From NCBI RefSeq assembly GCF_963675165.1, contig NC_087377.1, positions 15,372,198-15,436,197 on the forward strand: 64,000 nucleotides of DNA, given 5' to 3'. Positions 173 through 63,729 of this stretch are shown here, one piece after another (within the stretch, counting starts at the first letter, position 1; every line of letters begins with the position of its first letter). The position numbers were made by a program, and so were the translations under genes. The notes below the pieces were generated by a model, which worked only from the letters and a program-made list of their open reading frames with translations, made no database searches and was not told the DNA's origin. Source of the DNA: Halichondria panicea (Eukaryota; Porifera; Demospongiae; Suberitida; Halichondriidae).

Positions 173-3100
173 GAGATGAGGATTATATTTTAGTGGATGT
201 AGTTCTTGAGTGGCACCAAGATTCTGACCTCACTCAGTGTGTGAGTGTGGCCATCATCAATGACGAGTGTGTGGAGGAGAAAGAAGAAGTGTTCACTGTC
301 TCTCTGTCCACAGAGGAGGAGTGTGTTGACATCGGATCAGACAACCAAACTACTGTCACCATTCTGGATGATGATCGTGAGTCTAGTCTACAGTTATTTC
401 TCCCTATAATTATGTATTTAGACTCTAGGTAGAACTTGGCAGCTAAACCAGTGACGGTGTTTATGACAGCATTTTTGTCTCAGGGCTGCTTGTGGATTTC
501 AGAGATCAAGATATGGTAGAGGAATCTGCTGGCAATGTCACCTTGTGTGTGTACATCTGTGATGGAGTGCTTAAAAGAAATGCAAGCATCACATTAGCTA
601 CAAAGGAGATGACGGCACTTTGTGAGTTACACATGTACTGTACTGCATGAGCATGTTGTGATTGTAAGCCACTAGTTCGTGTACTGTCTGTGCATGTACA
701 TGCATGCTCATTAAAATAAAATCAACCAAGTTTAAACCCAAGAAAGCTACAAAAACACATATTACACAATATATCAGTTCAGTTCTAGTCTTTCACAGTG
801 TATGTAGTAAAACAATAGGAAAGGTAGATGGGTAAAGACGGAATCTTGCTATAAGTGATTCTGAGTCAGTAAATTAATGTCCCCCTCCCAGCTCCTGCAG
901 ACTTCAGTGACTCTTCCTACGAGTTAATCTTCACGCCAGAAAACGCTGATCAGGACTTGTGTGTGATAATCTATATCGTCAATGACACCATATACGAACT
1001 GACTGAGCAGTTTATGGCTGTTCTGACCACCAACGACTCGTGTGTAGAGTTCAAGCAAGAGTCCACACCAATCTCAATACTAGATGATGACTGTAAGTTG
1101 TGTATAGTATGTAATTATAAGGTGTGTGTGCATGTAGCAGTGAAAATCGAGAGATCTAGATACACATAGCGAGGACTATAAATGCTATATACACAGATAA
1201 GTACACATTGTATACCTATAATAACTGCTTCTGAATCAACTATCATGCTATAATATGCAGTCTCACTTATAGACCCAGTGTGCGTGTACATCAAGTCTGC
1301 ATATCTACTTTAACTCAGTTTGTTTAGATTGTCATGATGGTCTTAGCATATAACTGTGCCGCCTTCCTCAATTTTGTTTCAGGTGTAACTCTTGATCTAC
1401 AACCAGAATTGGAAATGGTAGCAGAATCGGACGGAGTGATTGAGGTGTGTGTCTCTCTGTCTGGAGAGCTGGAGACCAGTGTCAATGCCATGGTCTTTAC
1501 TGTCCCTGGAAATGCAAACGGTGAAGATTTATAAAATTAATAATGACACTTTTACTGGAGCATGCACTGTACACAAGAACTGAATATTTGTTTGTGGAGT
1601 CTGGAAAAGTTATTTGTTGGTGTACTCAAATTTATGCTGTCTTCACTCTGTAGCTGAGGATGACTTCTCATTTGACTCCGTCATGAATGGTACTGGAAAC
1701 AGTCCAGTAATATTAACCTTCACCGAGGCTGGGGAGCAATGTGTCAACATCTCCATAGCAATGGACAACTTGCTAGAGACCTCCGAACATTTCTCTGTAG
1801 TGATGGGCTCTCAGGATGACAGAGTGAAATTGAAGAACCGCATCTCACGAATCTACATCATTGACAGTGGAAGTGAGTTCATGCAACGTACACACCAGTG
1901 ACCTGTATGTACTGTAATGACATCACTAACTTTCATGTAATTATTATACCCAGAACTAAACGTATCCAATCCAAAAGCGTAAATAATAGTATCAACTTTG
2001 GCAGAACATTCTTGAACAGCTAGTTTTTGCGTAATATTTATCCCCCCCCCCTTCACTCCTTTATCGGGCCCCCTATATCTATCCCCTTACCAGCGGTGAG
2101 GTTTGGGTTCTCTCAGAGTGTGTACCCAGTCCCTGAGGAGGACGCCAGTGGAGAGGGTTACATCTTGGAGGTGTGTGTGGAGCTCTTCTCTGGAGAGCTG
2201 GACAGAGAGGTTGTCATCATTCTGGAAGATCAGGATGGATCAGCTATTGGTAAGTAGGTGTACATGCATGTGGGTGTGTTTAGTTTAGATATAGCTCCAT
2301 GCAATCCTATAGCTCATGAAATGAATGTTGTTAACAATGCATACCTCATTTTTTAGGAGGGAAAGATTATGTAGAAATTGAGGAAGATATTACAAGTGTG
2401 GACATTGTATTTGCACCTGCACCGGTACATCCTCACTGGGGAAGAAGGAAGCGAGCAGCAGCAGCACTACCTCGGTGTGTGAATGTGACCATTCTGGCCG
2501 ATGATCTGGTGGAGAATGATGAGTTATTTAGTCTGGTATTGAGCAGTGTAGACCCTGGAGTTACTCTCATGCCAGCCAACGCTACTGTAGTCATCTTAAA
2601 TAATGACTGTGAGTATATAGTGTTTAGTTTTACTTAAAAGCATTCCAGCTGAGTAACTTACTACGTGCATTTTTGGATACTAGCTATCCGGTTAATGAGA
2701 GTAACTTGTATAATGTATATAGTCTTACAAACGTTTTGGATTCATCAAATATAATTATTCTGAGGCTCTTATGTACTATCCAGTGTTAAACTAATGAAAG
2801 TATCTTATTGCGGAGTATCGTTGTAATAAGGTCAGTCTCTTCACGCTCTGTTTTCTGCAGATGCTAACGTGAGTCTGGCCCTAAACGCCTACCATGTGGC
2901 CGAGAGTGATGGCAATGTGTCTGTGTGTGCTGTTCTGCTCGGAGGGGAACTAGCCCGGGAAGTGGCCGTCAATATCACTACCACTGACACCGTAGGAACA
3001 GCTACTGGTGCGTGTGTTCTCTCTAGTTTTTCAGATCGAGAGGTTGTTGTGTATGCTATAGAGTGAATAAAGTTGGTAACCAAACACTTGCTGTAGAAAC

Positions 3101-6100
3101 TTATTTCTACTACTGTTGTTTCACCATCACAATTTTGTTCGGTGCATGAGTTGTGTTCTTCTGAGTCATTCGATTAAACCTATGTCATATTGGTTGTCAT
3201 GCATGGTGATATGTTATTTCCCACAGCTGGCTCTGACTACACCTCAGTGACGGACTACACCCTGAGCTTTGCCGCTGGCTCTCCAGTGAACTCCATGTCA
3301 TGTGTGGACATTGTGATCCTTGAAAACAGTGCAGTGGAGGACATTGAAGTTTTTGTTGTGGAGCTGTCCACCAGTGACCCTGTGAACATCCTGTCACCTG
3401 ACAATGCTCCAGTGATCATCTTAGACAATGATGGTAGGTATCTATAATTCTCTCAGTAGTTTGTATATTAATTGTTGTGGATGCCCCCATGAAGTGTGGT
3501 GCTTATATGTTATCTGTTGACCTGAGTATGCCACCATTTACAGCGTCCAATAACGTACTGTGGAGTGTATATAAATTATAACTTGACATAAATTGTTTCC
3601 CCCTCCTCCTCATTCCAGTCCTTAGAGTCGGGCTCGTTAATTCCAGTTTCACTGTGAATGAAACTGATGGCTATCTGACAGTTGGAGTTCAGATTCTGGG
3701 TGGCAGTTTGGAGTTGGAAAAGATTGTGTTGATATTCACAACAGCTGATACTGCTACTCCAGGTACGTGTGTTTTGGACTATTGAGTGGTTGGAACTATT
3801 GTATGGGCCTTGGTCTATAGAGGCCACTGTTTAAAATTATATCGTATGCCGGCATGCAAGCGTGGTTAGCATATCTCTATGGTAATACCCTACTTTATCA
3901 GTGCAATTATATTACAGTTTTTTACTTTGATTTGCAGGCCGTGACTATGTGGAGCTTTCGAATAAGATTTTGAGTCTCCCGAGTGGACTGGGGGTTGGAG
4001 ACGTGGTCTACTTCAATGTGAGCATCCTCAACGATGATGCAGTGGAAGAGATGTTTGAGAACTTCACTGTCCACCTGAATGACACGGTTCGTGTGTCTGT
4101 CATTGGAAATCGCTATGCTGTTGTCGATATCATGGAAGATGAAACAGATAGTAAGTTTATTTTTCTGTCTAACTATAACCCCCCCCCCTCTATGCATGTA
4201 CTTCTATACGTACGTACTCAATATCAAAAATGGACATTGATGCCTATTATTCTTAGGCACCTATATTATGCTAAAATTATTCGTATGAGTGCTTATATAT
4301 ACGTCTCAGAATGTTCACAAATAAAACTTAGCATATATACCCTGTCACAAAACTAGATCAGAGTCAAGGTCAGCCTACCCGTAACTCATAATTTGTAACT
4401 TTAATCCCCCCCCTCATTCCAGTGCTTGGAGTCGGACTTGTTAGTTCCAGTTTCACTGTGAATGAAACTGATGGCTATCTGAGAGTTGGAATTGAGGTTT
4501 CGGATGGCAGTTTGGAGTCGGAACAGACTGTGTTGATATCAACACAAGCTGGTACTGCTACTCCAGGTACGTGGGTTTGAACTATTGAGTGGTTGGAACG
4601 CATTGTGGCCAAAAATGTGGTTTGATTTTATAGAGGCCACTATATCAAGAGCACCCGTACATGCCAATTGTGGTTGACATAATTATACATTAACCACCAT
4701 GATTTTCAGGCCTGGACTATGAGGAAATCCTGAGTATGATATTGATTCTCCCGAGTGGACTGGGGGTTGGAAACGTGGTCTACTTCAATGTGAGCATCCT
4801 CAACGATGGGGCAGTGGAAGAGATGCTTGAGAGCTTCACTGTCCACTTAAATGACACGACTCGTGTGTCCGTCATTGGAATTCGCTATGGTGTTGTTGAT
4901 ATTGAGGAGGATGAGACAGATGGTGAGTTTGAGCTACAAAGGTCTTTCTTTTGGAGCTGATTCTGTCTCAGAAATTGCGTTCTGAAGCTACGTAGTATAT
5001 ACATGCATGCCTAGTTATTCGATGATAAATTGGCTTGCCAAACATGCATTGATGTTCTTTTGCTGTTCAATTACCACAAATTCATATGATATCTTAATCC
5101 CACACCAGTTGTCATGGTAACGTTTGGTCAGGCTGAAGTGTTAGTGAATGAGGGCGACAGTAGCAGCGTGTGTGTCAACATCACTGGTCAACTGGAACGA
5201 CAGGTGGCTATCAGTGTGTCCGTCTCCGGAGGCTCTGCAAGCACGGGTTCAGACCATGATTTCCCGGCTTCTACTTTTTTCAGTTTTAGCTCCTCCCCTG
5301 ACACTTACTGCATCTCCTTCAACACCACTCAAGATGCCATTTATGAAAATGATGAGACCATCTCTGTTCGTGTTGACTCCTCTGACCCTCAAGTCAATAC
5401 TGGTGCTATCAGTACAGTCAGCATTCTTGACAATGATAAAGGTAATTTAAGTATAGTACATAATTATGTTGATTGCCACCCACTGATGCATGAGTAGTGC
5501 TGAGCTATTAAAACGAAGAGTCGGAATTACATACTAAGGGAATGTGTGCAGTCCTATAGGATTAATATTATATTCATCCAGATATATTATAGCTACATTT
5601 AGTATCTGCCATTTTGGTGTGTATTTTCTTTTCTATTTTCAGTTTTGTCCTTCCCCAGGTTTATATATAGAGACAGGAAATTTGTAATCGTATAGCTGTT
5701 TTGTTTTACATTAAATGCAGTCTTTGAATTGCCCATTATTTTCCCCTTTCTCCATTAGTTGAGTTTCAGATGGTGATAGTCAATGAGACGGTGTGTGAGA
5801 GTGACGGTTCTGCCATGGTGTGTGTACAGCTGATGACAGTCACTGAGAGAGAAGTCATGGCCAGTGTGCAGCTGTCTGATCTCAGTACTCAGAGTGAGTG
5901 CTGTATTGCTTTCTGGACAATTGTGCCATGCATTATTGATTGCTTGCAACACCAGTCAATTTACACTCTCCATATGTATGCATGCATGTTATATTAATTC
6001 TACTGTGTCATTGCACTCATGATTATCTTACACTTCCGAGCATTTTATGTGCCAGTTAATATTACGGCAGCTAATACTGTCATTGCATTCACTACTTCCC

Positions 6101-7165
6101 AACAGGTGGATTGGACTACACTACTTCCACAGTGACCTTCAGTTTCCCCAACCCATCTGCTGCTGACACAATGCAGTGTGGATTTGTACCTATAATGGAT
6201 GACACCAATGTTGAGCCTTGTGAAGCTTTCTACCTGAACCTCACCTCCTCTGCTGATAGGAGCTGTATTGTCGACGATGACCTGCCTAATACTGTGATCA
6301 TCTATGATGATGAAGGTGCGGTTCAGTATACTGTAAATTTCCCTGGGTTATCAAATAAAAAGAAATAGTTTGCTATTATTATAGTATGCACTTTTCTTGC
6401 AGATGTGGATGAGTTGCTTCTTTTCAACGACTCTCCACAAATCGTTGGTAGGAGCCTCACTGTGGACTACACCATATCCGGGTGTGCTCAAGTTTTGTGT
6501 CAAGTTATATCAAGAGTAGACGAGGTTGACTGTGAGTATAATAACGGTTTATAGTATGTGTTTGCCGACTGATGAGTGTTATATAATTATAGCTAGATGC
6601 ATGAAAGAAAACATATAGGCTGCATGCATGTATTATTTTAGCTATCTACAGTATATAATATACTCTCGCTATATTCCGGCTTTCTAAAGTATATACGGCC
6701 ACCTCGATATATACCGGCCATTTGGTTTGGCACGGATTGCTATAATTATAGCTACATGTATAGTACAAAACTCACCCTGAAATGTGGCCGTGCACTCGCT
6801 ATTCCGTATACATATATTGGCCATTACTGCATGGCTGGCTCCAAACTATAGGTTTTCAATATACGTTTGGATATAAAGTTTTAGGTATGGTTTGGTAGAT
6901 TACTTAAATAGATTAAATAGAGCGCAGAATCATTCGTTATCCTTGAGACAGAACCGCAAAATGAGTAATGAGATTCGAGGTAAGGTCATGTTTTAGTCGC
7001 GGCTATTTTCTGCAGCCACCTCGCTATTCCGGCCAAGCTGCACTGTCCCAAGGGTGACCGGACGAGAGTCTATATATACTGTATATAAATTATGTGTGGC
7101 TATGAACAATTCTGTGCCGTGTTGATAATGAACGATTTTCTATATCTTTAATTCTTTGCTCCTCT

Positions 7166-7221
<56 letters not shown>

Positions 7222-9171
7222 TCTCCCCCTACTGGTAGCCTCACTGGACAATGGTTCCAAGAGTCAGTCACAACCAGGAGAACTATCAATAGGCTTCTTC
7301 TTACTGCTGTGCCACGCTGTCCCAGTCAGGTTGTTCCTGTAGGGTTTGAAGAAAGACGTTTCCGTATAGGTATCTGATGCATAATTTATATTGTTATAGT
7401 ACATGCATGTATCAATCAGGAGAATTTATTGAATTTTCTTACTATAATTATCCGAACACATGCACTGACCATTGTAGAGTGCACTATAGCTGTGCACTGT
7501 ACATAATATAGCTACGTATAATTATAATTATGTATGATGTGTTATAATTATGAAACAATTCTCTATTATTTAAACTCCTGCAGATATCCCACAGTGTGGT
7601 GTGGTATTCACTGACCAGCAGTACGAGGTTGACCCTGTATCTGGTGACGTGACTGTGGAGTGGGCCGGAACTGGACCAACTGCTGAAGTCAATGTCAGTG
7701 AATTCACGTGTCGTCTGCCCGATGGAACATCTACAGATTGTGAGTTTAACTACTTATATACATGCATGTATATATATACCACTAAAATGGCACCACCTCG
7801 CCATAATAATTATTAAGACATTAGCCTGCCTACAATGATATTTATAGCCGCTCGAGGGATACGATAAATTAAGACAGAGGAAATACGACATATGCATGAA
7901 TCACTTTTTCACAAAATTTTTTTTCACAATTTCAGTGCATTATTTCATTGCCAGGGGCGTAGGCAGGGGAGGGGCTCATGGTGCTCAAGCACCCCCTTTC
8001 TATCTGAGAATTGTACACAAAGTGTACCTGATTGTCTAGCTGAGCACCCCCTTCTCTTCCAGATCTTGCTGCAATTAGCTAGCTATAGTAGGCAAGCAAA
8101 ACGAATTGGTCTTTAAACTGTTAACTATTCTGGCTTAGATCTATAGACTAGTTCTCTTTTGTAGCAAAATAGGCTTCTCTATGCAAATAAAAGATTGGGC
8201 TACGCCCAACTATTAATTATTACGTCATTAATAAGAGGTGTGGCTTCCGGTCAACCAAATTTCGGCGCTTTGCACCCTCTTTCGTCGTGGTAGCACCCCC
8301 TTCCTCAAAATCCTGGCTACACCCCTGATTGCGGTCACGTGATAACGTTCAAGCCAGTACACAAGCACTTGTAGTGATTCGTGCACACATGTCAGGCCTC
8401 TTCTGTCAGCTCAATAACTGCTCAACGATTGCATGCGAAACTAACCGCTTCTAATTATAGGCTCTATCCCCATTCTTGGATTTTGATTCGTGGATTTGCA
8501 AACTAACTACATTTACTAACAGTGAAGGCTGTTGCATGCAGAATCTTTTGTAGCACTATCAGAAGTAGCAGCCATTGTGAACTCTGACCTCTTTGCATAT
8601 CCTTATTCGCTGACACTTCACAGAAAAAATTTAATGCAAAATACTTATCAAATTATGTAGATCTACATGCTTCTTCTCTTAAAGATATTTATCAAGTCAT
8701 CAGATCGATGTAGACTTCTGTTCCATTAAGCTCCTCTAAAAAATAAGGTATAATTATATGGAATTCAATTTGTTCATTGTCAAATGTAAGCATTTATTGT
8801 AACAAAACAAAGCAAATTAATATAATTATATCTCTTCCTATAATTATAATACTCTAATACTTTTTGAGAGAAGCATGCAAACATGTCGAGAGGCATTAGC
8901 ACAGCGCAGCTTGCAACATTCAGGACTTGATTTTATTACACACCACCTCCCACACACACACACACCTGCACACACACTTGCATTTAATATACACCCCCCA
9001 CCCACACACCCACACACATATACAGGCACCAGTCCATTTGTGATCACTGGTCTAGCTCAAGGTGTTTCCCACACCTTCTCAGTAACACCTCGGCAAATCA
9101 GTAATTCTAGCCTGCCTCAATGTGCCAGTAGGAGAGGATTAATTGGTTCCGTCCTTACCATCCAACTCTAA
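173..9171 (+). CDS. Gene 1: multi-Calx-beta extracellular protein, 3' part (5' end outside window)
   Basis: Twenty exons join in frame with GT-AG introns, all phase 1: 173-376, 484-621, 892-1092, 1383-1520, 1654-1872, 2094-2249, 2357-2608, 2861-3007, 3227-3433, 3619-3762, 3938-4150, 4423-4566, 4710-4922, 5109-5441, 5759-5893, 6106-6315, 6403-6531, 7220-7369, 7584-7739, 9026-9171. They give about 1211 visible residues ending in TAA. Bases 1-172 are read as intron. The protein is a row of Calx-beta domains (half of one plus eight whole) followed by a cysteine-containing C-terminal module. No membrane segment is seen after the last domain, so the product is probably secreted or matrix-bound. Calx-beta domains are beta-sandwich repeats, often calcium binding, found in integrin beta-4, Na/Ca exchangers and sponge aggregation factors. 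Gene 2 at 31.7-47.2 kb is a clear paralogue with matching exon order. Confidence 0.85.
2427..2478 (+). other. Polybasic RRKR motif inside a gene 1 Calx-beta domain
   Basis: Exon 2357-2608 encodes the string HWGRRKRAAAALPR between two core strands of the fourth whole-or-partial Calx-beta domain. RRKR followed by A fits the R-X-K/R-R consensus of furin-type proprotein convertases. The neighbouring domains have a short acidic loop at this place, and this exon (252 bp) is longer than its siblings (about 210 bp), so the motif sits in an inserted surface loop. Cleavage is inferred, not shown. Confidence 0.5.
3619..4922 (+). repeat. Tandem duplication of one Calx-beta domain in gene 1
   Basis: Exon pair 3619-3762/3938-4150 and pair 4423-4566/4710-4922 have identical exon lengths (144 and 213 bp) and close sequence similarity. 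The similarity extends into the start of the intron after the first exon, where both read ...CTCCAGGTACGTG and then share the motif ATTGAGTGGTTGGAAC. This is a domain-sized genomic duplication of about 0.8 kb. A third, broken copy of the same segment lies at 13389-13554. Confidence 0.8.
7167..7218 (+). repeat. (CA)n microsatellite abutting a splice acceptor
   Basis: About 26 CA units run directly into the acceptor AG at 7218-7219 of the exon starting at 7220, replacing the usual pyrimidine tract. The intron before it (6532-7219) otherwise holds AT-rich sequence with several short CCGTAT/ATTCCGGC motifs that look like decayed inverted-repeat elements, and no coding exon that I can see. Confidence 0.9.
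7952..8327. mobile_element. Short inverted-repeat element (hAT-like MITE) in last gene 1 intron
   Basis: The ends CAGGGGCGTAGGCAGG and CCTGGCTACACCCCTG are inverted repeats with three mismatches over 16 bp. Flanks share ATTGC on both sides, consistent with a decayed target duplication. Inside are two AGCACCCCCTT motifs. The element lies in intron 7740-9025, which is only 146 bp long in gene 2, so the insertion postdates the duplication. The rest of that intron is AT-rich and CA-rich, with nothing coding. Confidence 0.65.
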
Positions 9172-9800: not shown

Positions 9801-11270
9801 TCAGCACCTCATCAATTTTGACAGTAACATCTTCGACGTTCCTAAAATTCTTTCTGACATATAGTTCCTGCCACTTATTTTTGTAAGCATCTTGAAGGAG
9901 GGATTGCCAGCCTCAAAACTTGGCTCTAATTCCAGACCTAGTGCCTTGTCTCTGAGCCACCAGAAGTGGATCAAACCTGCTCCATGGACTCCCAGCATCA
10001 CATCTGCTTCCACTGCGTATCTCACTTGCTCACAGATGTTGAGATCTTCCATGTGAATTATGTCCACAGTGACCTTTGGGAAAGCTTGTTGGATCTTTAA
10101 AACCATTTCACATTCGTTACTTAAAATCCGCTGAAAATTCTTCGGTTCATCACTAGTCCACCTCTTGTAGAACTTTCTCGAAACGACCACGATACGAGAA
10201 GTATTGGAACACTGGTCTGTGATGTTGCATGCCTTCAGTACCCTAGTGCGAAATGTGTACAGTGGGGAGCCCGTTAGATCTTTACCGCTGCACTCAAAAC
10301 AACGTGATCTTAAGGTGCTCTCCATCTTTGACCTAAACGGTACTGACTGGTAACTTCTGGGAGATAAAAATACCTTCTTAAAACATATAGTACTGTTCTG
10401 TGGCAGATCCTTAAGAGTCAGTGCGCCTGGAAATAGTGCCTTGTCAAACTCCGGAAATCTGTAATTGCTGCTCATACTTCCGACTCTCAAAACTAGGCTG
10501 TCTGCTAAGTTAAGATCAAACAATGTTTTGTGGACACTGTACAAGTCGTTAAACCTGAAGTAAATGTGGAGAGCATTAGACACATGGAAAATGGTCGTCT
10601 TGTTGATCCAAACGTCGCAAACTGATGGCGCTAACTTTTCTGACTCTAAGAGATGCCGAGCCAGCCTAATTTGTATGTCGTCGAAGTCTGTCTTCTTTGA
10701 AAGTTGGTTTACTGACGGAGATTGACAACTTGCATCTAAGCTCTCCAACAAATTTATAGTCCTCTCTGCCGGCTTTTTCCAACTCGTATCACTAGGTATG
10801 ACATCAATCATATTTTGTGGATTTAAGGCTAAGTTCTCAAATGAACATTGTGCCATGTGGTTAGTGTACACAGTACCAGAACACTTTACCTGATCCATTT
10901 TAGTTACTTCTTTACCACACATAGGGAGAGCATCGTGAAAGGTATTAACCAGATAGTCGTAGCAAAATGTCTTCTTTTTCCAGGTAGGTCTTTCCTCCTC
11001 ATGTTCTCGCTCGCTCAGTACAGGCCTCGGTACAATACCTTCAACACCACCTCTCTTCAAGGCAGAGGCAGTTATATATATAGCTGTTCTGTTAGCTGCT
11101 TGCAAGGCATGAATGGGCTCAGCTACTGACACCCATGAGTTCTTTTCCGCTTTGTTCTGGAGATAAGTACGACCAGAGTGCCTGAACAACACACTTAGCT
11201 GGATGATAATGAGCAAGCTGGTTAGCACCACCAGAAGCACAGCTCCTAGTTTGATCATTTTACTATCCAT
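9801..11270 (-). CDS. GT61-family glycosyltransferase, copy A (type II membrane protein)
   Basis: A single uninterrupted frame of 489 residues. It has a short cytosolic end, one hydrophobic anchor at about residues 8-30, a stem, then a catalytic region with the DUF563/GT61 hallmark GVHGAGLIHFWWL near the C-terminus. GT61 includes EOGT, POMGNT2 and plant xylosyltransferases; members act in the ER or Golgi lumen on glycoproteins or glycans. The acceptor cannot be told from sequence. The frame is open up to 11411, but I chose the ATG at 11270 because copy B (48858-50327) starts at the aligned Met and the upstream part overlaps a repeat hairpin. Relative to copy B, about 2 nt are missing near the end, so the last residues differ (MLLSKLMRC instead of a lysine-rich tail). 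No intron is seen, so an old retrocopy is possible. Confidence 0.85.
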   Translation of the reverse strand: MDSKMIKLGAVLLVVLTSLLIIIQLSVLFRHSGRTYLQNKAEKNSWVSVAEPIHALQAANRTAIYITASALKRGGVEGIVPRPVLSEREHEEERPTWKKKTFCYDYLVNTFHDALPMCGKEVTKMDQVKCSGTVYTNHMAQCSFENLALNPQNMIDVIPSDTSWKKPAERTINLLESLDASCQSPSVNQLSKKTDFDDIQIRLARHLLESEKLAPSVCDVWINKTTIFHVSNALHIYFRFNDLYSVHKTLFDLNLADSLVLRVGSMSSNYRFPEFDKALFPGALTLKDLPQNSTICFKKVFLSPRSYQSVPFRSKMESTLRSRCFECSGKDLTGSPLYTFRTRVLKACNITDQCSNTSRIVVVSRKFYKRWTSDEPKNFQRILSNECEMVLKIQQAFPKVTVDIIHMEDLNICEQVRYAVEADVMLGVHGAGLIHFWWLRDKALGLELEPSFEAGNPSFKMLTKISGRNYMSERILGTSKMLLSKLMRC

Positions 11271-48857: not shown

Positions 48858-50327
48858 ATGAATAGTAAAGTGTTTGAAATAGGAGCTGTGCTTCTGGTGC
48901 TAACCAGCTTGCTCATTATCATCCAGCTAAGTGTGTTGTTCAGGAAGTCTGACCTTGTTTATCTCCAGGACAAAGTGGAAAAGAACTCGTGGGAGTCAGT
49001 AGCTGAGCCCATTTTTGCCTTGCAAACAGCTAACAGAACAGCTAAGAGAGGTGTTGTTGATTGTATTGTACCGAGGCCTGTACTGAGAGAGCGAGAACAT
49101 GACGAGGAAAAACCTACCTGGAAAAAAAAGACATTTTGCTACGAATATCTGGTTAATACTTTTCACGATGCTCTCCCTATGTGTGGTAAAGAAGTGACTA
49201 AAACGGACCAGGTAAAGTGTTTTGGTACTGTGTACACTAACCGCATGGCACAATGTTCATTTGAGAACTTGGCCTTAAATCCACAAAGGACAATTGATGT
49301 CATGCCTAATGAAAGGAGTTGGAACCAGCCGGCAGAGAGGACTATAAATTTGTTGGAGAGCTTAGATGCAAGTTGTCAATCTCCGTCAGTAAACCAACTT
49401 TCAAAGAAGACAGAACCCAATGACATACAAATTAGGCTGGCTCGGCATCTCTTAGAGTCAGAAAAGTTAGCGCCATCAGTTTGCGACGTTTGGATTAACA
49501 GGACGACTATTTTCCATGTGTCTAATGCTTTCCACATTTACTTCAGGTTTAACGACTTGTACAGTGTCCACAAGACATTGTTTGATCTTAACTTAGCAGA
49601 CAGCCTAGTTTTGAGAGTCGGAAGTATGAGCAGCGATTACAGATTTCCAGAATTTGACAAGGCACTATTTCCAGGCGCACTGACTCTTAAGGATCTGCCA
49701 CAGAATAGTACTGTATGTTTTAAGAAGGTATTTTTATCTCCCAGAAGTTACCAGTCAGTACCGTTTAGGTCAAAGATGGAGCGCACCTTAAGATCACATT
49801 GTTTTGAGTGCAGTGGTAAAGATCTAACGGGCTCCCCACTGTACACATTTCGCACTAGGGTACTGAAGGCGTGCAACATTGCAGACCAGTGTTCCAAGAC
49901 TTCTCGTATCGTAGTCATCTCGAGAAAGTTCTACAAGAGGTGGACCGATGATAAACAGAAGAATTTTCGGCGGATTTTAAGTAACGAAGGTGAAATGGTT
50001 TCAAAGATCCAACAAGCTTTCCCGAATGTCACTGTGGACATAATTCACATGGAAGATCTCGACATCTGTGAGCAAGTGAGATACGCAGTGGAAGCAGATG
50101 TGATGCTGGGAGTCCATGGAGCAGGCTTGATCCACTTCTGGTGGCTCAGAGACGAGGCACTAGGTCTGGAATTAGAGCCGAATTTTGAGGCTGGCAATCC
50201 CTCCTTCAGGATGCTTACAAAAATAAGTGGCAGGAACTATATGTCAGAAAGAATTTTAGGAACGTCTAAAGGTAGTGTTACTGTCAAAATTGATAAGGTG
50301 CTGAAAAAACTGAAGAAGTACGTATAG
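48858..50327 (+). CDS. GT61-family glycosyltransferase, copy B (type II membrane protein)
   Basis: An intronless frame of 489 residues from the first ATG. The anchor GAVLLVLTSLLIIIQLSVLF is at about residues 8-30. The stem contains NSWESVAEPI. Then come paired cysteines (FCYEYL, PMCGKE, AQCSFENL, CFECSG) and the GT61 motif GVHGAGL at residues 418-424, followed by IHFWWLRDEALGLELEP. The C-terminus is lysine-rich (KVLKKLKKYV). It is very similar to copy A throughout; differences include a few indels in the stem. GT61 enzymes transfer a sugar in the secretory pathway; the donor is unknown. It follows gene 2 by 1.6 kb in the same direction, whereas copy A converges on gene 1. Confidence 0.87.
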   Translation: MNSKVFEIGAVLLVLTSLLIIIQLSVLFRKSDLVYLQDKVEKNSWESVAEPIFALQTANRTAKRGVVDCIVPRPVLREREHDEEKPTWKKKTFCYEYLVNTFHDALPMCGKEVTKTDQVKCFGTVYTNRMAQCSFENLALNPQRTIDVMPNERSWNQPAERTINLLESLDASCQSPSVNQLSKKTEPNDIQIRLARHLLESEKLAPSVCDVWINRTTIFHVSNAFHIYFRFNDLYSVHKTLFDLNLADSLVLRVGSMSSDYRFPEFDKALFPGALTLKDLPQNSTVCFKKVFLSPRSYQSVPFRSKMERTLRSHCFECSGKDLTGSPLYTFRTRVLKACNIADQCSKTSRIVVISRKFYKRWTDDKQKNFRRILSNEGEMVSKIQQAFPNVTVDIIHMEDLDICEQVRYAVEADVMLGVHGAGLIHFWWLRDEALGLELEPNFEAGNPSFRMLTKISGRNYMSERILGTSKGSVTVKIDKVLKKLKKYV

Positions 50328-50771
50328 TTCAAATATGCTATCACGATTGTGTCTCACCATGCATGCATGTATGCAGTTCAAGTCTTATAATTGTCATCTA
50401 TATAATATAGCGGGAATTTTTCGTGAGGTGCAAAATTTCACGTTTTTGAGGGCAGAGCAGTTAATGTGAAAATTAAGAGTGCATGGGATACCTACCACGC
50501 AGCACCGGTATTTCCCGCTACAAAAATTTCTGCGTGTATACAGTACATAATGGTAGGCCAATGCAGGCCTGATAAACTATTCCTTGAGAGTAACTCCGTT
50601 AGAGGCTAGGATGGCTTAGGCCTGGGATCGAGGCTAGGATTGGCTTAGCCTCGGTTTCAGGCTGATAAAATTAATACGCCTGGATTCTCGAGGGTAGGAT
50701 TGGCTCTGATTAACCGCCGCGTCATTGGAGTTAATTAAAAGGGCGTGGTCTCTAGTCTTAGCAATAAAGGC
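50328..50771. other. Spacer with MITE remnant and TAGCCTCG hairpins
   Basis: A decayed inverted-repeat element occupies about 50409-50519 (AGCGGGAATTTTTCG against CGGTATTTCCCGCT). The motifs GGCCTGGGATCGAGGCTAGG, TTAGCCTCGGTTTCAGGC and GCCTGGATTCTCGAGG between 50600 and 50700 are ends of the same foldback family as 28006-28739. Confidence 0.55.
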
Positions 50772-51461
50772 ATGATTGTTTCTAGTTCTATTGCTGGTGC
50801 CAGTGACTGTCGAAAGAGAGTGGAAGCATGCATAATTGAGAACTTAAGTGAGCCCAAGACCCTTGATGAAATCAAAAATGAACTAACAGATGTGCCTCAT
50901 ACTGACTTAAAGACCATCTTGCAGCACCTGACGAGCGAAGGAACTATTATCTATAAAGAAATTCTTGACTGCTCAGTCTACTGGAAAAAAATCCAAGATG
51001 AAACAATTAGAGCCACACCCCAAAAAACGGTAATCTCTAAATCAGAAAGAAAATTCACGTCTCCGTTATCAACCTCAATACCGAGAAAACCCTCTCCGAG
51101 AGTTAGTCTGCCGTTTAAATCTCCTGCTCTGTCCCTCACATGTACCCCTTCATCCATCTGCACACATCCCAAAGCCAGTGCCAGTACTAGTTCATCCCGT
51201 ACATGTAACAGAAACGAGGCAATACCAACGTTTACTACTTATATCCAAGGATTGGAATCAGAGCTAGAAGAAATCGAAAAGGAAATTTCTGATCTAAGGG
51301 TTATTTACAGTGTTGAGGAACTAAAAACTCATATTGATACATTACATGAGTACAATGAGATGAAGGATACTGGACAGGTTCTGCTCGGAAAGCTGGCCGA
51401 GGTCGAGACTACCACTACAGCTCAGCTCTACTCAAGATATGGTTTAAAATTGGACAGTTGA
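50772..51461 (+). CDS. SWI5: Swi5-like recombination-repair protein with N-terminal extension
   Basis: An intronless frame of 229 residues from the first ATG. The C-terminal 70 residues carry the Swi5 pattern: a coiled coil (LESELEEIEKEISDLRVIY) followed by EELKTHIDTLHEYNEMKD, GQVLLGKLAEVETTTT and QLYSRYGLKLD. Swi5 pairs with Sfr1 to stimulate Rad51/Dmc1 strand exchange in homologous recombination in the nucleus. The N-terminus (VEACIIENLSEPKTLDEIK, then LKTILQHLTSEGTIIYKE and VYWKK) reads like a small winged-helix fold. A serine-, proline- and threonine-rich linker joins the two. I do not know that N-terminal fusion as standard for the family. Lack of introns suggests a retrocopy or intron loss. 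The frame could be extended upstream only by a non-ATG codon. Confidence 0.8.
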   Translation: MIVSSSIAGASDCRKRVEACIIENLSEPKTLDEIKNELTDVPHTDLKTILQHLTSEGTIIYKEILDCSVYWKKIQDETIRATPQKTVISKSERKFTSPLSTSIPRKPSPRVSLPFKSPALSLTCTPSSICTHPKASASTSSSRTCNRNEAIPTFTTYIQGLESELEEIEKEISDLRVIYSVEELKTHIDTLHEYNEMKDTGQVLLGKLAEVETTTTAQLYSRYGLKLDS

Positions 51462-51763: not shown

Positions 51764-54700
51764 ATGGCAGCTAAGAGTTCCTTGATTGGATGCATTGCTT
51801 TTCTATTTCTCTTGTGTGCTACTACAGTGCAAGGTTAGCTGCACTGAAATACATGAAGCTATAGCTACAAAAGCTTCATGGAGTGCAGTGAAAGTACTGT
51901 TTATGTTCTACATCTATAGGTGGAAACGTAGAGGTGAAACTATCTGAAAATGATTACAGAAGTTCTGAAGCTGAAGGCATGCTCAATGTAGCAATAGTTG
52001 TGTCGGACGCTTCTGATCAAGAGTTCGGAGATCTGCTATTCAATGTGACAGCACTAACTAAGCAGCAATTCAATGAATTTGGAAGCCAACTTTGCAACAA
52101 TGGTCTTGTGCTGCAAACCAGTTCAAGCACCAGACCCGCAGAAGGTAAGCAGGCAGCCACAGTAATCATTGTAAATCTGCTGGCCTGTCTGCATGTCCCT
52201 TTCTTTCTTTTTTTATAGAGGCTGATTTGGAGTCAATGAGTGTGACATGCATAAGACATCTTCTCACACCTACTGAGGAGATCCTTTGCTCATTTATTAT
52301 CACACAAGACACTACTCTTGAATCAGATGAAGTTTTTGCACTTGTTCTTAAAGTTGCTGATGATGCTGGGAATTTGATTGCTCTCGGTGATAATTGTGCT
52401 GTCGCTACCATCTCTACTGGAACAAGCAAAGGTGCAAATTATTCTATAGATGTCACCTATTGCTACCATTTATGTGTTAAATATGTTTACAGGATATTTG
52501 CAAGTAATAGACGAAGTGCGTAAAGTGACCGAAGGAGATTTAACTGTTCACTACATCACCATCAGGAAGAATTTTACTGCTGAATTTCCGGTCGTATTGG
52601 ATATACAGACAGGAGGTTTTGGTGAATTCAATGGACCAAAAGATGGTTTGTATATACATGTATATTGTATACATTGTATATATAGGTACCCTTCAATTAA
52701 CAATTTATATAGTATAAGAGTGGGAACTGAAGTGTTCGGGGGAGAAGCTTCCCCAGGGCCCCTACCTCCCCCCCCACATTGTACAACCCAGTATATACAG
52801 TGGAACCTCTCTATAACGGACACCTTTGGGGAACAATGTTTTGGCCTTTATACAGAGGTGGCCTTTGTTGAGAGGTTGTTTTGTACACAAACTGTTCATT
52901 TGGGACCTGGGTGCCTGGCCGTTATATAGCAACTGGCCTAATTTATTCGTAAGTGGTTGTTAACAAAGCTAGGTTCCACTGTACATGCATGCACATACAC
53001 AGGGAAAGACTACATCTTCAATGGTGGAATTACTAATGGAATTGTCTTTCCCGCTGATGTAAGCACTCTCGAACTTCAACTGGAGATTCTAGATGATTCT
53101 ACAATCGAGGATGATGAATCTGTAACAGTCGTCTTTAACGGTGCAGTGGATGTACCAGGACTAGACATCGTTATTATGCCACCTTCTATCACTGTCACAA
53201 TCAGTGATAATGATGGTACGTTTCAACATAATTATAAAATAGTTACTTACTTTTCACATGCACAGTTGTGACAAGTGGATTTGAAGAGACAAGGGACACC
53301 ATAACTATTATCGAAGGAGGAAGAGTAAGCGTTTGTGTTGAGCTAAAAGGATTCGATCAGTCTAAACTAGAAAGAGGTATTGAGATCGGTATTGAGGCCC
53401 CTCCAAGTAAGCAAAAAAACAAACAAAGGTGTGCAAAGTATTATTGTAAAATATTATTACATTCTGTGTAGGTAGAGACTATTTCTTGAGCGCTCCCCGG
53501 GGTCAGAGTTTGACTGCGTACCTGGAGGTTGAAAGTCCACATTGTGTTGATATTTTCACTTTCTCAAATAAGGCCCCAGAGTTGTTAAAATCGTTTCAAG
53601 TAACGTTGGTTGATCAAAGGCTTGCTCTGATAACTGATAAAGCGAAAAGAGAGCGACATCAGCTGTTGAATATTATTGAGCCACACACACTGACCATCAT
53701 CATAGAGGATGATGATGGTATGTTTATCGTTATGCTAAATAAATTACGTAAATCGATTCGAAATTTTATTTGAGGAAGCCCATGCAGGTTGATTGCACAA
53801 TTGTGTAGCAAGAGTAGACGTCTATATACATTTATTGATTAAAATGTTGATTGCACAATTGTGTAGCAAGAGTAGACGTCTATATACATTTATTGATTAA
53901 AATGTTCGCATAAGTTATGTGAACAGTGAGTATAATTATAGCCTCCAATACACAAGTCATAATGAGGGACATACCAGGAATTACTGAGTTAATTAGTCCA
54001 CGGAACACACACAGAGGCCAGCCACGACTCAAACTTGCTACCATATTTGAGCAACTTTGTGTCACGTTTCCCATGCATCTTAATTCCTAGCCAAGAATTA
54101 GCAATACCACTAATTGTCAGCACTAATACTATATTAGTTGCATGCTAACAATGTGTATGTCCTTATCTTGACACCCAGGTACTCCAAATAGACCTACCAT
54201 TACTGAGCTGGACGTTGTAGAGAAAGACTTAGCATTCGAATGGAGTATAAGAGAAGAGGATGGTCTACGCCCTGTCGACTGTTACTTCGGCAACATAACG
54301 ATTCGAAATCACTACTGGTTCAGTGTACACATTTGATCTTTGTAGTACTAGCAGCCCAAAAGACTTGCAGCATCGGTTCTCTGGTAATATTAACGACACA
54401 AAACAGTACATAGTTGTAGTATGCGCCAGAAATCAGCTCGGTGTGAACTGTTCGGATCCAGTGGTGTATCCGACAGAGATTACGCCTACCCCTATTCTAA
54501 TAGGCACTCCAAATAGACCTACCATTACTGAGCTGGACGTTGTGGATAAAGACAACTTAGCATTTGAATGGAGTATAAGAGAAGAGGATGGTCTACGTCC
54601 TGTCGATTGTTACTTCGGCAACATAACGATTCGAAATCACCAAGGAATAGACGGTTCTGATTCAGGTGGTGATGAAACTACTGGTTTGCTGTACACATTT

Positions 54701-56824
54701 GATCTTTGTAGTACTAGTAGCCCAAAAGACTTGCAGCATCGGTTCTCTGGTAATATTAACTACACCAAACAGTACATAGTTGTAGTATGCGCCAGAAATC
54801 AGCTCGGTGTGAACTGTTCGGATCCAGTGGTGTATCAGACTGACATTACGCCCACTGTCCCTATTCTAATAGGCACTCCAAATAGACCTACCATTACTGA
54901 GCTGGACGTTGTGGAGAAAGACAACTTAGCATTCGAATGGAGTATAAGAGAAGAGGATGATCTACGTCCTGTAGACTGTTACTTTGGCAACGTAACAATT
55001 CGAAATCGCCAAGGAATTGACGGTTCTGATTCAGGCGATGATGAAACTACTGGTTCAGTCTACACATTTGATCTTTGTAGTACTAGCAGCCCAAAAGACT
55101 TGCAGCATCGATTCTCTGGTAATATTAACGACACAAAACAGTACATAGTTGTAGTATGCGCCAGAAATCAGCTCGGTGTGAACTGTTCAGATCCAGTGGT
55201 ATATCAGACTGAGATTACGCCTACCCCTATTCTAATAGGCACTCCAAATAGACCTACCATTACTGAGCTGGACGTTGTGGAGAAAGACTTAGCATTCGAA
55301 TGGAGTATAAGAGAAGAGGATGATCTACGTCCTGTAGACTGTTACTTTGGCAACGTAACAATTCGAAACCGCCAAGAAATAGACGGTTCTGATTCAGATG
55401 GTGATGAAACTACTGGTTCAGTCTACACATTTGATCTTTGTAGTACTAGCAGCCCAAAAGACTTGCAGCATCGGTTCTCTGGTAATATTAACTACACCAA
55501 ACAGTACATAGTTGTAGTATGTGCCAGAAATCAGCTCGGTGTGAACTGTTCAGATCCAGTGGTGTATCAGACTGAGATTACGCCTACCCCTATTCTAATA
55601 GGCACTCCAAATAGACCTACCATTACTGAGCTGGACGTTGTGGAGAAAGACTTAGCATTCGAATGGAGTATAAGAGAAGAGGATGATCTACGTCCTGTAG
55701 ACTGTTACTTTGGCAGCGTAACAATTCGAAACCGCCAAGAAATAGACGGTTCTGATTCAGATGGTGATGAAACTACTGGTTCAGTCTACACATTTGATCT
55801 TTGTAGTACTAGCAGCCCAAAAGACTTGCAGCATCGATTCTCCGATAATATTAACTACACCAAACAGTACATAGTTGTAGTATGTGCCAGAAATCAGCTC
55901 GGTGTGAACTGTTCGGATCCAGTGGTGTATCAGACTGAGATTACGCCCACTGTCCCTATTCTAGTAGGAACTCCAAATAAACCCACCATTACTGAGCTGG
56001 ACGTTGTGGAGAATAACAACTTAGCATTTGAATGGAGTATAAGAGAAGAGGATGGTCTACGCCCTGTCAACTGTTACTTCGGCAACATAACGATTCAAAG
56101 AAGTCAAGAAATTGGCAGTTCTGATTCAGGCGGTGATGAAACTATTAGTTCAGTCTACACATTTGATCTTTGTAGTACTAGCAGCCCAAAAGACTTGCAG
56201 CATCGATTCTCTGGTAATATTGACGATACCAAACAGTACATAGTTGTAGTATGCGCCAGAAATCAGCTCGGTGTGAACTGTTCAGATCCAGTGGTGTATC
56301 AAGCTGAGCACCCGCCCACTGTCCCTATTTTGAGAGCTGGTCCAGGAGTGATCATAGGAGCGATAGTTGTTATGGTGTTGATTTTGTGTTGTTGTCTCAC
56401 TCTGCTCCTGTTGATTATCATATTTTACTGTGGGTGGAGCAGAGAAAAGAGATACTTTCCACAAAGAAGAGGTGAGTGATAGATCTAGTAGTAGCTTTAT
56501 TGAAATAAGAGTACTGCATGTCTATTATATGTGTGGTATACGGGTGTATACTATCTGGAGATGAAATTATTGTGGAAACAGCGAATCATGCATGCAATTA
56601 TTACTAGTATAAGCCAATTGTTGATACATAATTAATTGTTTCCAAACACAGAGAAGAAATTTGCTAAGGAAGCCGCCTACAGGTATGTGCATGATATACT
56701 TAAGAGAGTAATTTATCTGTCTGCATGCATGAACATATTGTTATACCACACATGCAGGCACGGATCAGATGATTCGTTGTCAGAATATGAAGAAGAATTT
56801 GACTTAGAGAAGTCATCGCTTTAA
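51764..56824 (+). CDS. Gene 3: Calx-beta/FN3-like single-pass membrane protein (frameshifted in assembly)
   Basis: Exons 51764-51833 (signal peptide MAAKSSLIGCIAFLFLLC), 51920-52144, 52219-52431, 52493-52645, 53003-53215, 53266-53406, 53472-53717, 54179-56471, 56652-56682 and 56758-56824. Exons 2-7 form three Calx-beta-type domains ending in STGTS, SDNDG and EDDDG loops. Exon 8 holds FN3-like repeats and a membrane segment (VIIGAIVVMVLILCCCLTLLLL). The basic juxtamembrane motif SREKRYFPQRRGE then leads to a short acidic tail SEYEEEFDLEKSSL. The first FN3 unit lacks 38 bp, so the frame meets TGA at 54334-54336, which would give a secreted product of about 472 residues. The later units, membrane segment and tail are intact. 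Gene 4 is the paralogue. A cell-surface adhesion or recognition role is inferred. Confidence 0.8.
52798..52981. mobile_element. CAGTGGAACC-ended MITE, copy 1
   Basis: Ends CAGTGGAACCTCTCTATAAC and AGGTTCCACTG are inverted and TA flanks both sides. It is 184 bp. A second copy is at 59182-59364. It lies in the gene 3 intron 52646-53002. The ends resemble pogo/Tc1-type non-autonomous elements. Confidence 0.85.
53788..53903. repeat. 58-bp perfect tandem duplication in a gene 3 intron
   Basis: GTTGATTGCACAATTGTGTA at 53788 and again at 53846, each followed by the same 38 bp. It is in intron 53718-54178. The rest of that intron shows nothing notable. Confidence 0.9.
54179..56330 (+). repeat. Homogenised FN3-like repeat array of gene 3
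   Basis: One truncated and five whole units, starting at 54179, 54504, 54873, 55239, 55602 and 55968, each 363-369 bp (about 122 residues). The pattern per unit is P.RPTITELDVVEKD.LAFEWSI, then DCYFGN.TIRN, YTFDLCSTSSPKDLQHRFS and QYIVVVCARNQLGVNCSD, which is an FN3-like sandwich with two cysteine pairs. Units differ at few positions, mostly in the acidic loop GSDSGGDE. All sit in one exon, although each unit starts after CTATTCTAATAG, which still looks like a splice acceptor. The first unit lacks 38 bp between AATCAC and TACTGG. Confidence 0.9.
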
Positions 56825-56948
56825 TGAACAACTTAACACATTTCACAGCTGCTAAATGCATAACAAACAACATGTGTTACTGTAACAATTATCATTGTTT
56901 TGTAATGATCTTTACCAAACCCAAGTCAATTAAGTTGTGCGTAGCCTT

Positions 56949-58425: not shown

Positions 58426-58433
58426 ATAGCCTT

Positions 58434-59927: not shown

Positions 59928-62900
59928 ATGGCATCAGCACTATTGATTGCTCTTTCTGTTTTGCTTGCAACAGCTACATGTGTGCAAGGTCAAGGTAAGC
60001 AGGCTATAAACTTACTTCTAGATCTAGTATAGACTATACAAAATGGCCAGCAACCAGCTAGCTAGGTCCAGCACTGAGCTGCATGTACAGATATATAGTT
60101 CTGAATGTCATTGTGCATGCATGTAGCTACTGCATGTGTTTCTGTTGTCAATGCAGCATGGTTTGCTCCCTGCAGGTGGTAGCTTGACAGTGAAGCTATC
60201 AGAAGCTGACTTTGCAAACCATGAAGAAGATGGCAACCTGAATATAACACTGACTGTCACCATAGCTGGTATTACACCAGGAACAAACCAGTTGGAGTTC
60301 AGCTTTGAAGCTCTCACTCAAGCTCAATACAATGCTAGATTGGCCTCACCTGAAAATTCGTTTGAGTGTAGCCCGCTGTCTCCACAAGGGGATGACGTTG
60401 CAGAGGGTGAGAGGAGCCGGTTATTATACTGTAGCCGAATAGATACAGCCTAGCTTATTATCACTATGATAATTTGCCTCCTTTTACTATAATTCTATTG
60501 TAGAGGATGATTTGGTCATGACTACCGTCACCTGCTCTGGAGATCCTCCCACGGCACAGGATAACGCTGTCACTCTCGTGTGCTCTATTCCAATCACACA
60601 AGATGGAGTGTATGAGGGAGACGAATATTTGGTGCTCATAATGACAGTCTCAAACGATGGCGGAAACACCGTTGAAGTTGATAGAAACTGTGCAATAGGA
60701 AGAATTCTTGCCAACAATAATCCAGGTACTGTAATCACTACATTGCACAAAACTTTATTAAATTGGTGCAGCTGATTTTTTTGACTTCACACTGACGACA
60801 CTAAGTGGGCCACTAGTCGTGACGGAGGGAGATACATTGAATGTCGAAATCACTAGAAATTTCCCCACGGAGCTACCTATTGAGGTGTCTATTCGCGGAG
60901 ATGGAATAGCAAATTCAGACAACCAAATTCCGTTTGAAGGTACGTATGTAAAAACTAATGGTATACAAGTAAGCATGTATATAATCACGATTATGTCAGC
61001 ATTATAATTATTGCATGATCGTTATCTTATAGGAGAAGATTTTAGTTTGGAGCAACGAAACATCATGTTTCAACCAAATCAAGACACACTGATTATACTG
61101 TTTGAGTTTTTTGAAAATATGGCTCCTGAGTTAACAGAAAATCTGAGAATTTCTATCACTGCAACAATCCAGACGGCAAGTGGTAATGCCATCGATGTTC
61201 CCATTCAACCACCCACCATTGTTGTGTCCATCCTCGATAATGATTGTAAGTCAAATCGTAGCAAGGTGTATTATCGTACATGAGTATAATATGCTTATCA
61301 GGTTTCAAATGCATAGTTAATTGTGAAGTATAATACATGCACTGTATAATACAATTGTATGCGCTATGCATGCACTCTACTTAGCGAGTCTTTCGATTGT
61401 TTTCCATCAGTATGCAAAAACCCTCAGTTTGCCATCGAAATTAAGAGTCTCGTATTTGAAACCCGGTATATATGGTATTTATTCTTAGTATTTCAAAGCC
61501 TGTGTCAAAGAGAAGAGGGTATGATGCGCACTCACTATCTACCCTATATGTAATCACCAAACTTTGAGGCCGATGGGATATAGAATCCAGTAGTGGCAAA
61601 AATCTAGCATTCGGCCCACGCTGTATGTCAAATAATAGTAACTGAGAACAGCTTGAGGTGCATGCCCTCTGTTCTTTACAAGCCAAGCCCTTGACTGTTA
61701 TCACGATTATATATAACAGTTCATGCAGTTTAATTGTGTCCTCATCTCTTCTTGTTTTGTGCAGTGCTTACCAGTGGTTTTGAGAGGAATGAGACTGCCA
61801 TTACTGTCACTGAAGGAGACTCAATTCAACTGTGTGTCGAATTTAAGGACTTCAATTTGTTTGGAAATGAATTTCTCGAGAGACCCGTGGTGATAAATTT
61901 GACCACCACCACCAATGACAATTCGGCTACCAGTGAGTTGGAGTCGCTATAATAAACCATACGTAGGTCTCCTGCATGCGTATTATAAGGATGAAGTTCT
62001 ACTGTTTAGTTTGTAGCAGGAAATTAATGCGTGCACTTATCTTGTTTTCACAGTTGGAACAGATTACACTGTCATGTATCCAGAAGTGATAGACATTCTG
62101 CAATCATTTGCATTCCCATGCTATACAATCCAAACCGCTGGTAACGATCAGGCCGAGAGAACAAGAACGTTTCAAGCCGTACTAGTAGACGAACGGCTTG
62201 CTCTGATAACTGACCCCGGTGAGAGGCAGGCACACATGCAGCTCAACGTTATAAACCCTGGAACTATCACCATCAACATTGAGGATGATGATGGTAAGTG
62301 CTACACTCCCGCATGGTGTTAGTATAACTATAATGCATGCATGACATCATATATAATATATAGTCGGTACACAATTGTATACGCGCATGTATACAATTGT
62401 GTTTTTAGTTTATGTATACATGCAGTACATATAACAGATACCCATGCACTGAGATTGTGAAATAATAGAAGGATAATTATATAAGTATGTCGAGAACACA
62501 CTCCAGAAACTAATTTTATACCATTATAATTGTTATGATAAATGCATGTTATGTACTTACAATTATACTGTGATTGGAAGTCAACCAGCCAATGAACGTA
62601 ACTATACGCCCATGAACTATCATAGGCATAATAGGCATTTTTAAAACTCTTTGAAGCTTAGCCACCCACTCTGTCAACATCATGAATATACATAACATTA
62701 TAATGCCGCCCTTGTCAGAATAGCAAGGCAAAATGACAACATTCTGTACAATATTAATTACGATATACTAAGTTTTATCGCCTTGCGAGTCTATCAGGTT
62801 TAATAGTTCAAAATTGTTGATGCCATTGCACAAGTATCAAGTGCTGCATGAAAACTTAAATCATTTGTATTCCCATATGCTCTACAATCCAAACATTCCA

Positions 62901-63729
62901 AGCAAAATAGGTGGTAACTATGTTCTGCAGTATTCACAAGTTGTCAAAATATGAATTCAATACAATTATCACCTTATGAGTCATTGATAGGAACCCACAG
63001 AGTCCATAGGTCTGTGATAATTAAGGATTGTTAAGTACAGCTGTTAATATGTGTTAATTGACTTGACCACATGTCAAATGAAAAGATTTCCCAGTAGTAA
63101 AGGTTTCTTATACCAAACTGCATAGCAACTCTTCGCTAGAACACACTATATGGCCAGATACTCTCTCCATGCACTTATGCACCCACATGCACACAAATGC
63201 ACGCACATACACACGCACACAGGCACCCCAAACACGCCAATAGTCGTATTTGGCAATGGCCCCACTTTTCAATGGCAGACAGACGAGGAAGACGAGGCTC
63301 GTCCTGTGAACTGTCACTATGGCAACGTCACTGTCCGAACACCAGAAGGCAGCGAAAATGTCGTACAGTTCGACTTCTGTGACGGTTTCGACGGGCCAGG
63401 CTCCGAATTTGACCTACCAGATTTCGATACATCCAACATGTACACGGTGATAGTGTGTTCCCAAAATCGGCTAGGAACTTCTTGTACTGAACCTTTGATC
63501 CATACACCACCACCCCCCACCATAGCCCCGCCCACTACCACAGCTCAGCCCACTATTATAGCCATACCGGGTATGACAGGCCTTCAAAGTGGAGCAATTA
63601 TCGGCATTGTTGTTGGCGGCGTGTTGCTAGGATGCTGCCTCTTATGGTTGCTACTACTACTCTTGTTGTTGCTACTGTGTTGCTGTTGTAAGCGGAACAG
63701 AGAGAAAAGATACTTTCCTCAAAAACGAG
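59928..63729 (+). CDS. Gene 4: Calx-beta/FN3-like single-pass membrane protein, 3' end outside window
   Basis: Exons 59928-59994 (signal peptide MASALLIALSVLLATATC), 60176-60406, 60504-60725, 60772-60939, 61033-61245, 61765-61932, 62054-62293 and 63223-63729, all phase 1. Three Calx-beta-type domains (exons 2+3, 4+5, 6+7) end in LANNNP, LDNDC and EDDDG loops. One FN3-like unit follows (PIVVFGNGPTFQWQTDEEDE, then VNCHYGNVTV and YTVIVCSQNRLGTSC), then a P/T-rich stalk and a membrane segment (IIGIVVGGVLLGCCLLWLLL). The juxtamembrane motif CCCCKRNREKRYFPQKRG is almost that of gene 3. The acidic tail exons should lie just past 64000. The introns 61246-61764 and 62294-63222 hold only AT-rich DNA and GCATGC-type motifs. 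Confidence 0.85.

Follow-up and report, generated by a model that had tools for sequence, protein, structure and literature searches.

Giant Calx-beta genes stand next to glycosyltransferase and sulfotransferase genes at this sponge locus, and the question it raises is whether the proteins and the enzymes are coupled in function or are neighbours only. The window, by which we mean the whole stretch of 64,000 nucleotides (C1:15372198-15436197, in an assembly of 131.5 Mb and 39 contigs), was analysed together with its flanks, and negative window coordinates refer to the upstream flank. The gene content described in an earlier note was confirmed by Pfam matches and gene models, with corrections: between and beside two large Calx-beta genes, A and B, lie two GT61 glycosyltransferase genes, one WSCD-like sulfotransferase gene, two genes for type I membrane Calx-beta-like/FN3-like proteins (C and D) and a Swi5 gene (Table 1). 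The models come from a small purpose-written gene finder for which the open exons of the window served as the training set, its output being trimmed and split by hand; they are home-made and without transcript support. Gene B, GT61-2, Swi5 and gene C, which an automatic model had run together as a single gene, were separated by hand, and automatic exons inside or across the insertion in gene B were discarded.

Table 1. Coordinates of the features of the locus, numbered from the first nucleotide of the window.
Feature	Position	Strand	Remarks
Gene A, 3' part in window	1..9171	+	whole gene window -15390 to 9171
Gene A CTM exons	6403-6531, 7220-7369, 7584-7739, 9026-9171 (stop)	+	gene model
GT61-1	9801..11270	-	intronless coding region, 489 aa; ATG at 11270; PF04577 E 1.5e-14 (match 9804-11414)
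WSCD-like sulfotransferase	13687..20277	-	at least 6 exon pieces; composite, no complete spliced model
Gene B	31686..47239	+	gene model; 5' end provisional
Gene B Ig exons	31686-32096, 37311-37586	+	Ig_3 E 1.1e-9 on piece tested
Gene B sushi exons (n=13)	32384-36902	+	Sushi E 1.1e-29 on piece tested
Internal tandem duplication of sushi-exon stretch in gene B	34431..36904	+	91.5% identity, introns included
Gene B Calx-beta exons	37646-44288	+	one exon run through Pfam, E 5.1e-9
Gene B CTM exons	44340-44468, interrupted exon from 44641, 46797-46952, 47099-47239 (stop)	+	
Insertion	44715..46302	.	1,588 bp, CACTGTTAAAAATG terminal inverted repeats, TA flanks; inside second CTM exon of gene B
GT61-2	48858..50327	+	intronless coding region, 489 aa; PF04577 E 1.8e-16 (match 48834-50324)
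Swi5-like gene (open frame)	50739..51461	+	PF07061 E 7.6e-19
Gene C	51764..56824	+	signal peptide 51764-51833; Calx-beta-like exons 51920-53717; FN3-like repeats 54179-56471; last exons uncertain
Gene D	59928..63729	+	signal peptide 59928-59994; Calx-beta-like exons 60176-62293; FN3-like + TM exon 63223-63729

Both large genes proved to be longer or richer in domains than had been described. Only the 3' part of gene A is inside the window, the gene starting 15.4 kb upstream of it, and its model comprises 49 exons and 2,932 aa with canonical splice sites and no internal stop. Its Calx-beta domains are mostly split over pairs of phase-1 exons, and Pfam returned nine and ten passing stretches in the two pieces searched (E 8e-50 and 6.6e-119). 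In gene B, two Ig exons and 13 sushi exons had been missed; the architecture is Ig, 13 sushi, Ig, Calx-beta and a C-terminal module (CTM), and 35 exons encoding 2,409 aa are readable without a stop as far as the first CTM exon. The two proteins had been called large and secreted. Large Calx-beta proteins they are, while secretion is suggested for A by a signal-peptide exon at its start (a hydrophobic start in a simple scan); for B the same kind of scan found one candidate start only, a distant one at 24841. N-glycosylation sequons are in excess in both: 63 in gene A against a shuffle mean of 29.5 and maximum of 42, and 44 in gene B against 25.0 and 39 (500 shuffles each).

Gene B also bears marks of turnover. 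The open frame at its second CTM exon (44588-44746) stops shortly past the start of the insertion, and gene B could therefore be without most of the CTM unless the insert is spliced out. The sushi-bearing duplication in gene B and the FN3-like repeats of gene C (363 bp, 54179-56308, about 93% matching, mostly in one long exon) both stem from recent duplication.

The CTM, of about 190 aa and common to genes A and B, found no Pfam match at E<=0.1 as a whole and none over cut-off. In three of four members the final 100 aa do match Kre9_KNH, an Ig-like domain, each time below cut-off (best E 8.7e-4; 17.2 bits against a cut-off of 24.6 in the first member), and comparison with the PDB gave nothing useful, the best values (E 0.63 and 0.034) being taken as chance. 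A whole-genome search returned 55 CTM exon matches, from which 19 positions of CTM exon 3 were picked by hand, 17 on C1 and two on C4; among these are two short matches and two pairs whose members, separated by 2.4 and 5.7 kb, may each belong to a single gene. By this count genes A and B belong to an expanded family.

Part of that family lies to the left of the window as a mirrored arm. On the minus strand, A' extends from about -37.3k to -68.4k and B' from about -72k to -101.9k; A' consists of three gene-finder pieces and B' of two, each joined by hand from its match to A and B. On the B' side NIDO exons (E 1.5e-49) lie upstream of the sushi exons, and we read them as the probable start of B', which would give the architecture NIDO-sushi-Ig-Calx-CTM. 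On either strand A comes before B, the two pairs face apart around a WD40 gene whose resemblance to coatomer alpha is weak (E 1.2e-8 to the COPA/B second propeller, under the cut-off for that family), and A, B, A' and B' all fall within 150 kb. Over the eleven Calx/CTM exons that they share, the six possible pairs have a dS of 0.207-0.300. At E<=0.1, searches of the minus arm (80 kb), the middle (30 kb) and the right flank (10 kb) turned up no match to GT61, to the sulfotransferase or to the FN3/TM exon of gene D. Directly upstream of A', also on the minus strand, is a TMTC-type gene (window -36.6k to -32.9k; C1:15.3356-15.3393 Mb), with a TMTC_DUF1736 match (E 5.9e-15 at C1:15337401-15337595) and TPR repeats in other exons. 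TMTC enzymes O-mannosylate the beta-strands of cadherins. The gene is not special to the A/B locus, because the exon match beside A' is one of 13 in the genome.

The two GT61 genes, near-identical according to the earlier note, have 88% aa identity and PF04577 in both (54.9 and 61.1 bits, cut-off 27); the last ~14 residues of GT61-1 differ from those of GT61-2 through a small length or frame change at 9801-9850. That a GT61 gene follows each large Calx-beta gene also holds. Gene A ends at 9171 and the stop of GT61-1 is at 9801, tail to tail, and gene B ends at 47239 with the ATG of GT61-2 at 48858 on the same strand, such that the copies point opposite ways relative to A and B. The nearest solved structures are those of the GlcNAc transferases EOGT (9wjk, E 5e-6) and POMGNT2 (E 0.004). 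The likeness consists of the PF04577 domain, an HGAGL stretch aligned with EOGT and, in GT61-1, a hydrophobic N-terminal anchor (by eye); the similarity is nevertheless remote, and the coding regions here are intronless. An AlphaFold model built from two sequences had a mean pLDDT of 31.9 and was not used, comparison with NCBIfam yielded no lead, and the portions of the literature on GT61 in sponges that were consulted held nothing on point.

In the 131-Mb genome only two GT61 places were found, both at the A/B locus (two matches among three candidates with the Pfam model at E<=0.001, two of three at E<=10 and two of five with the full protein), a number that is a lower bound, as the searches could have passed over a GT61 gene whose coding region is split by introns. 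By a post hoc estimate, about 0.26% of the genome lies within 10 kb of a CTM position, and since the only two places found both lie there, their placement by chance is unlikely a priori. Calculated on the first 470 codons of their alignment, the pair has a dS of 0.090 and a dN of 0.058 (ratio 0.64); the luminal part has a dN/dS of 0.44, and 62 anchor and stem codons have one of 1.77, a value that depends on just three synonymous differences. At synonymous sites the copies have diverged less than A from B (Fisher p 8.5e-6) and B from B' (2.6e-4), so that the GT61 copies either arose later than the Calx pairs or were homogenised.

An origin of the GT61 genes by horizontal transfer or retrocopying, with their position an accident, would accord with the intronless coding exon, with the finding of only two copies and with a similarity between them that reaches only about 6 bases ahead of the ATG and some 80-110 bases past the stop. 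We nonetheless think it rather doubtful, given that GC and GC3 (0.43/0.47) are like those of local genes, that no poly-A is seen by eye past the 3' end of the similarity, and that the nearest solved structures, EOGT and POMGNT2, are animal-type enzymes. A recent bacterial origin found no support, as no bacterial relative was confirmed among 11 pattern matches in a search that finds close relatives only.

The sulfotransferase of the earlier note was likewise recovered, as a hand-spliced composite that passes the Sulfotransfer_1 cut-off (E 3.6e-8; 33.6 bits against 22), its exon matches running from 13690 to 20277 on the minus strand. It resembles WSCD-type sulfotransferases in this match and in its PGSGNTW and RNPFDAL stretches, and differs from them in that no WSC domain was matched in the composite tested here; the WSCD label and the roles of the two motifs are putative. 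At the edge of one exon is a 63-bp exact tandem repeat (15926-16052); the junction of its copies resembles, by eye, a possible splice donor, and the second copy may be intronic. Genome-wide, 29 exon matches were grouped by hand into about 12 places (13 were counted, of which C1:4292858 and C1:4296097 are probably one gene), the closest relatives clustering at C1:4.28-4.31 Mb. The window's own is the one place within 20 kb of a CTM position and the other 11 lie elsewhere, a distribution on which a specific tie of the sulfotransferase to Calx-beta genes was rejected.

What had been proposed from the gene content was a locus coupling core proteins with their modifying enzymes. Of this there stands a sequon-rich, probably secreted Calx-beta cluster, and next to it lie both of the GT61 places that the genome searches found, their location here being the one result that favours coupling. 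A repeated core-plus-enzyme unit does not stand: GT61 is near two of the 19 CTM positions. A duplicated unit of Calx-beta plus GT61 was rejected, because the mirrored A'/B' arm is without enzymes, the dS of the GT61 pair is lower than that of the Calx pairs and the GT61 copies face opposite ways. Linkage of core and modifying enzymes is thus plausible but weakened by these internal tests of linkage. Literature on clusters of sulfotransferases or glycosyltransferases with aggregation factors offered, in the parts consulted, nothing on point. A further form of coupling would be a dedicated O-glycan module, in which the genome's sole GT61s, the sulfotransferase and the TMTC gene by A' act on the beta-strands of the core, and core and glycan are inherited as one recognition haplotype; the presence of the TMTC gene feeds this reading but proves nothing, and we hold it to be very improbable.

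Genes C and D had been described as two membrane Calx-beta/FN3 proteins. Both have hydrophobic starts in the simple scan and a hydrophobic TM-like segment (by eye), in exon 54324-56471 of gene C and exon 63223-63729 of gene D; gene C ends in a short tail after this segment, the tail of gene D runs on, perhaps past the window end, and the two tails have a KRYFPQ(R/K)RGE stretch in common. The Calx-beta part of the description is weaker than it had seemed, the PF03160 matches being below the Pfam cut-off (E 0.0014 and 7.9e-4; 19.1 and 19.9 bits against 27), and the FN3 part is one of predicted fold. The composites of genes C and D gave no fn3 match in Pfam; the repeat exon of gene C alone matched fn3_4 (E 9.7e-8) as well as several improbable families, and none of its stretches passed individually. 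The modelled fold of the gene C repeat resembles FN3 (mean pLDDT 68.5; two of five models near 68 and three near 40; best FN3 match in Foldseek E 5.6e-4, with seven matches at E<=0.001), and the corresponding region of gene D was aligned to the gene C repeat only, at 42% identity. We have moderate confidence that both genes carry FN3-like domains. Between them, at 57001-58373, a 38-bp repeat forms two arrays that are inverted relative to each other. The Swi5 gene, which the earlier note had not reported, sits between GT61-2 and gene C and has no evident tie to the proposed function. Further neighbouring TM proteins with FN3-like domains, at least one of them with Calx-beta-like exons, are encoded at C1:17836000-17845999, with no CTM or GT61 match adjoining.

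Genes C and D enter into another version of the coupling idea, namely that this is a sponge aggregation-factor locus: A and B would supply the proteoglycan cores, the glycans on them would be made by GT61 and sulfated by the sulfotransferase, and the products of C and D would serve as their receptors in the membrane. Von Willebrand domains are not known to be universal in aggregation factors (AFs). The defining features of the sponge AF gene family are reportedly those set out by Grice et al. 2017, and with these features A and B agree in being large, clustered, probably secreted and rich in sequons, with many Calx-beta domains; the paralogues A, B, A' and B' lie close together and 17 of the 19 CTM positions share one contig. 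They differ in their Ig and sushi domains, in the NIDO of B', in a CTM of their own and in the domains around them, none of 21 VWD and 29 VWA matches falling between C1:15.26 and 15.45 Mb and no VWD match coming nearer than 50 kb to a CTM position, for all 19 of these. The glycans of sponge aggregation factors are described, in passages of PMC7828597, as sulfated, fucose-bearing and self-binding in a Ca-dependent manner, and the same passages give glyconectins a sulfated GlcNAc-fucose epitope; the solved structures nearest to GT61 are those of GlcNAc transferases. This, the Calx-beta cluster with its sequons, the adjoining TM genes and a GT61 found nowhere else in the genome speak for an aggregation-factor locus. 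We consider it quite unlikely all the same: most CTM positions and the mirrored arm do without the enzymes, 11 of about 12 sulfotransferase places are elsewhere, and 2.4 Mb off, at C1:17.84 Mb, there are more TM genes with FN3-like domains, one or more of which have Calx-like exons. A and B are not filed as aggregation factors, though they may work like them. Another candidate aggregation-factor-like gene is found at C2:272025-277757, where Calx-beta has twelve strong matches, all but one of them spaced at about 405 bp, and where a NIDO match follows at 280549.

The mixture of domains in B and B' also invites comparison with immune proteins. Ig, sushi and Calx-beta in B, NIDO in B', recent duplication inside genes and an expanded family would suit an immune or allorecognition array whose proteins bind microbes or neighbouring tissue, domain turnover then reflecting selection for variety. 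Sushi, NIDO and Calx-beta are among the domains of sponge pattern-recognition receptors according to a figure legend in PMC8242945, and B' would resemble the NIDO/sushi mosaic receptors of sponges in joining NIDO, sushi, Ig and Calx-beta if the NIDO exons are joined as we read them; it departs from those receptors by its giant Calx-beta array and CTM. Over the six pairs, the Calx/CTM exons in common have a dN/dS of 0.38-0.51, with no excess of amino acid change, and we regard such an array as unlikely.

The best explanation, and one that we consider fairly probable, is that the window holds one arm of an inverted-duplicated Calx-beta array and that the enzymes are neighbours of that arm only. 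A-B on the plus strand and A'-B' on the minus strand would form an array, duplicated locally and in inverted orientation, that encodes giant extracellular Calx-beta proteins, a reading supported by an intact gene A with its Calx-beta matches, by A' and B' on the opposite strand, by the spread of the CTM, by the sequon excess, by the near-identical repeats in B and C, by the negative enzyme searches of the mirrored arm and by a GT61 dS below that of the Calx pairs. We infer secretion, calcium binding and a role in adhesion or recognition for these proteins, which most likely are long rods, stiffened by calcium and N-glycosylated, at the cell surface or in the extracellular matrix, with domain numbers that may shift fast via duplication inside genes. 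The GT61 pair and the sulfotransferase would be Golgi-type enzymes that came to adjoin one arm only, and they may or may not modify A and B. Against this explanation stand the presence of both GT61 places at one locus, which chance is unlikely to have produced, and the home-made nature of the gene models, A' and B' above all having been pieced together. The same pattern would also result if the minus arm and the other CTM copies had lost GT61, and the low dS of GT61 could stem from gene conversion instead of later duplication.

The locus illustrates that nearness of genes, taken by itself, can mislead. Should the enzymes in fact modify the cores beside them, cell recognition in sponges would depend on a haplotype in which protein and glycan are linked. 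Even without a link to the enzymes, the expanded family of giant Calx-beta proteins, with its uncharacterised CTM and its NIDO-sushi-Ig-Calx architecture, makes up a candidate adhesion and recognition set.
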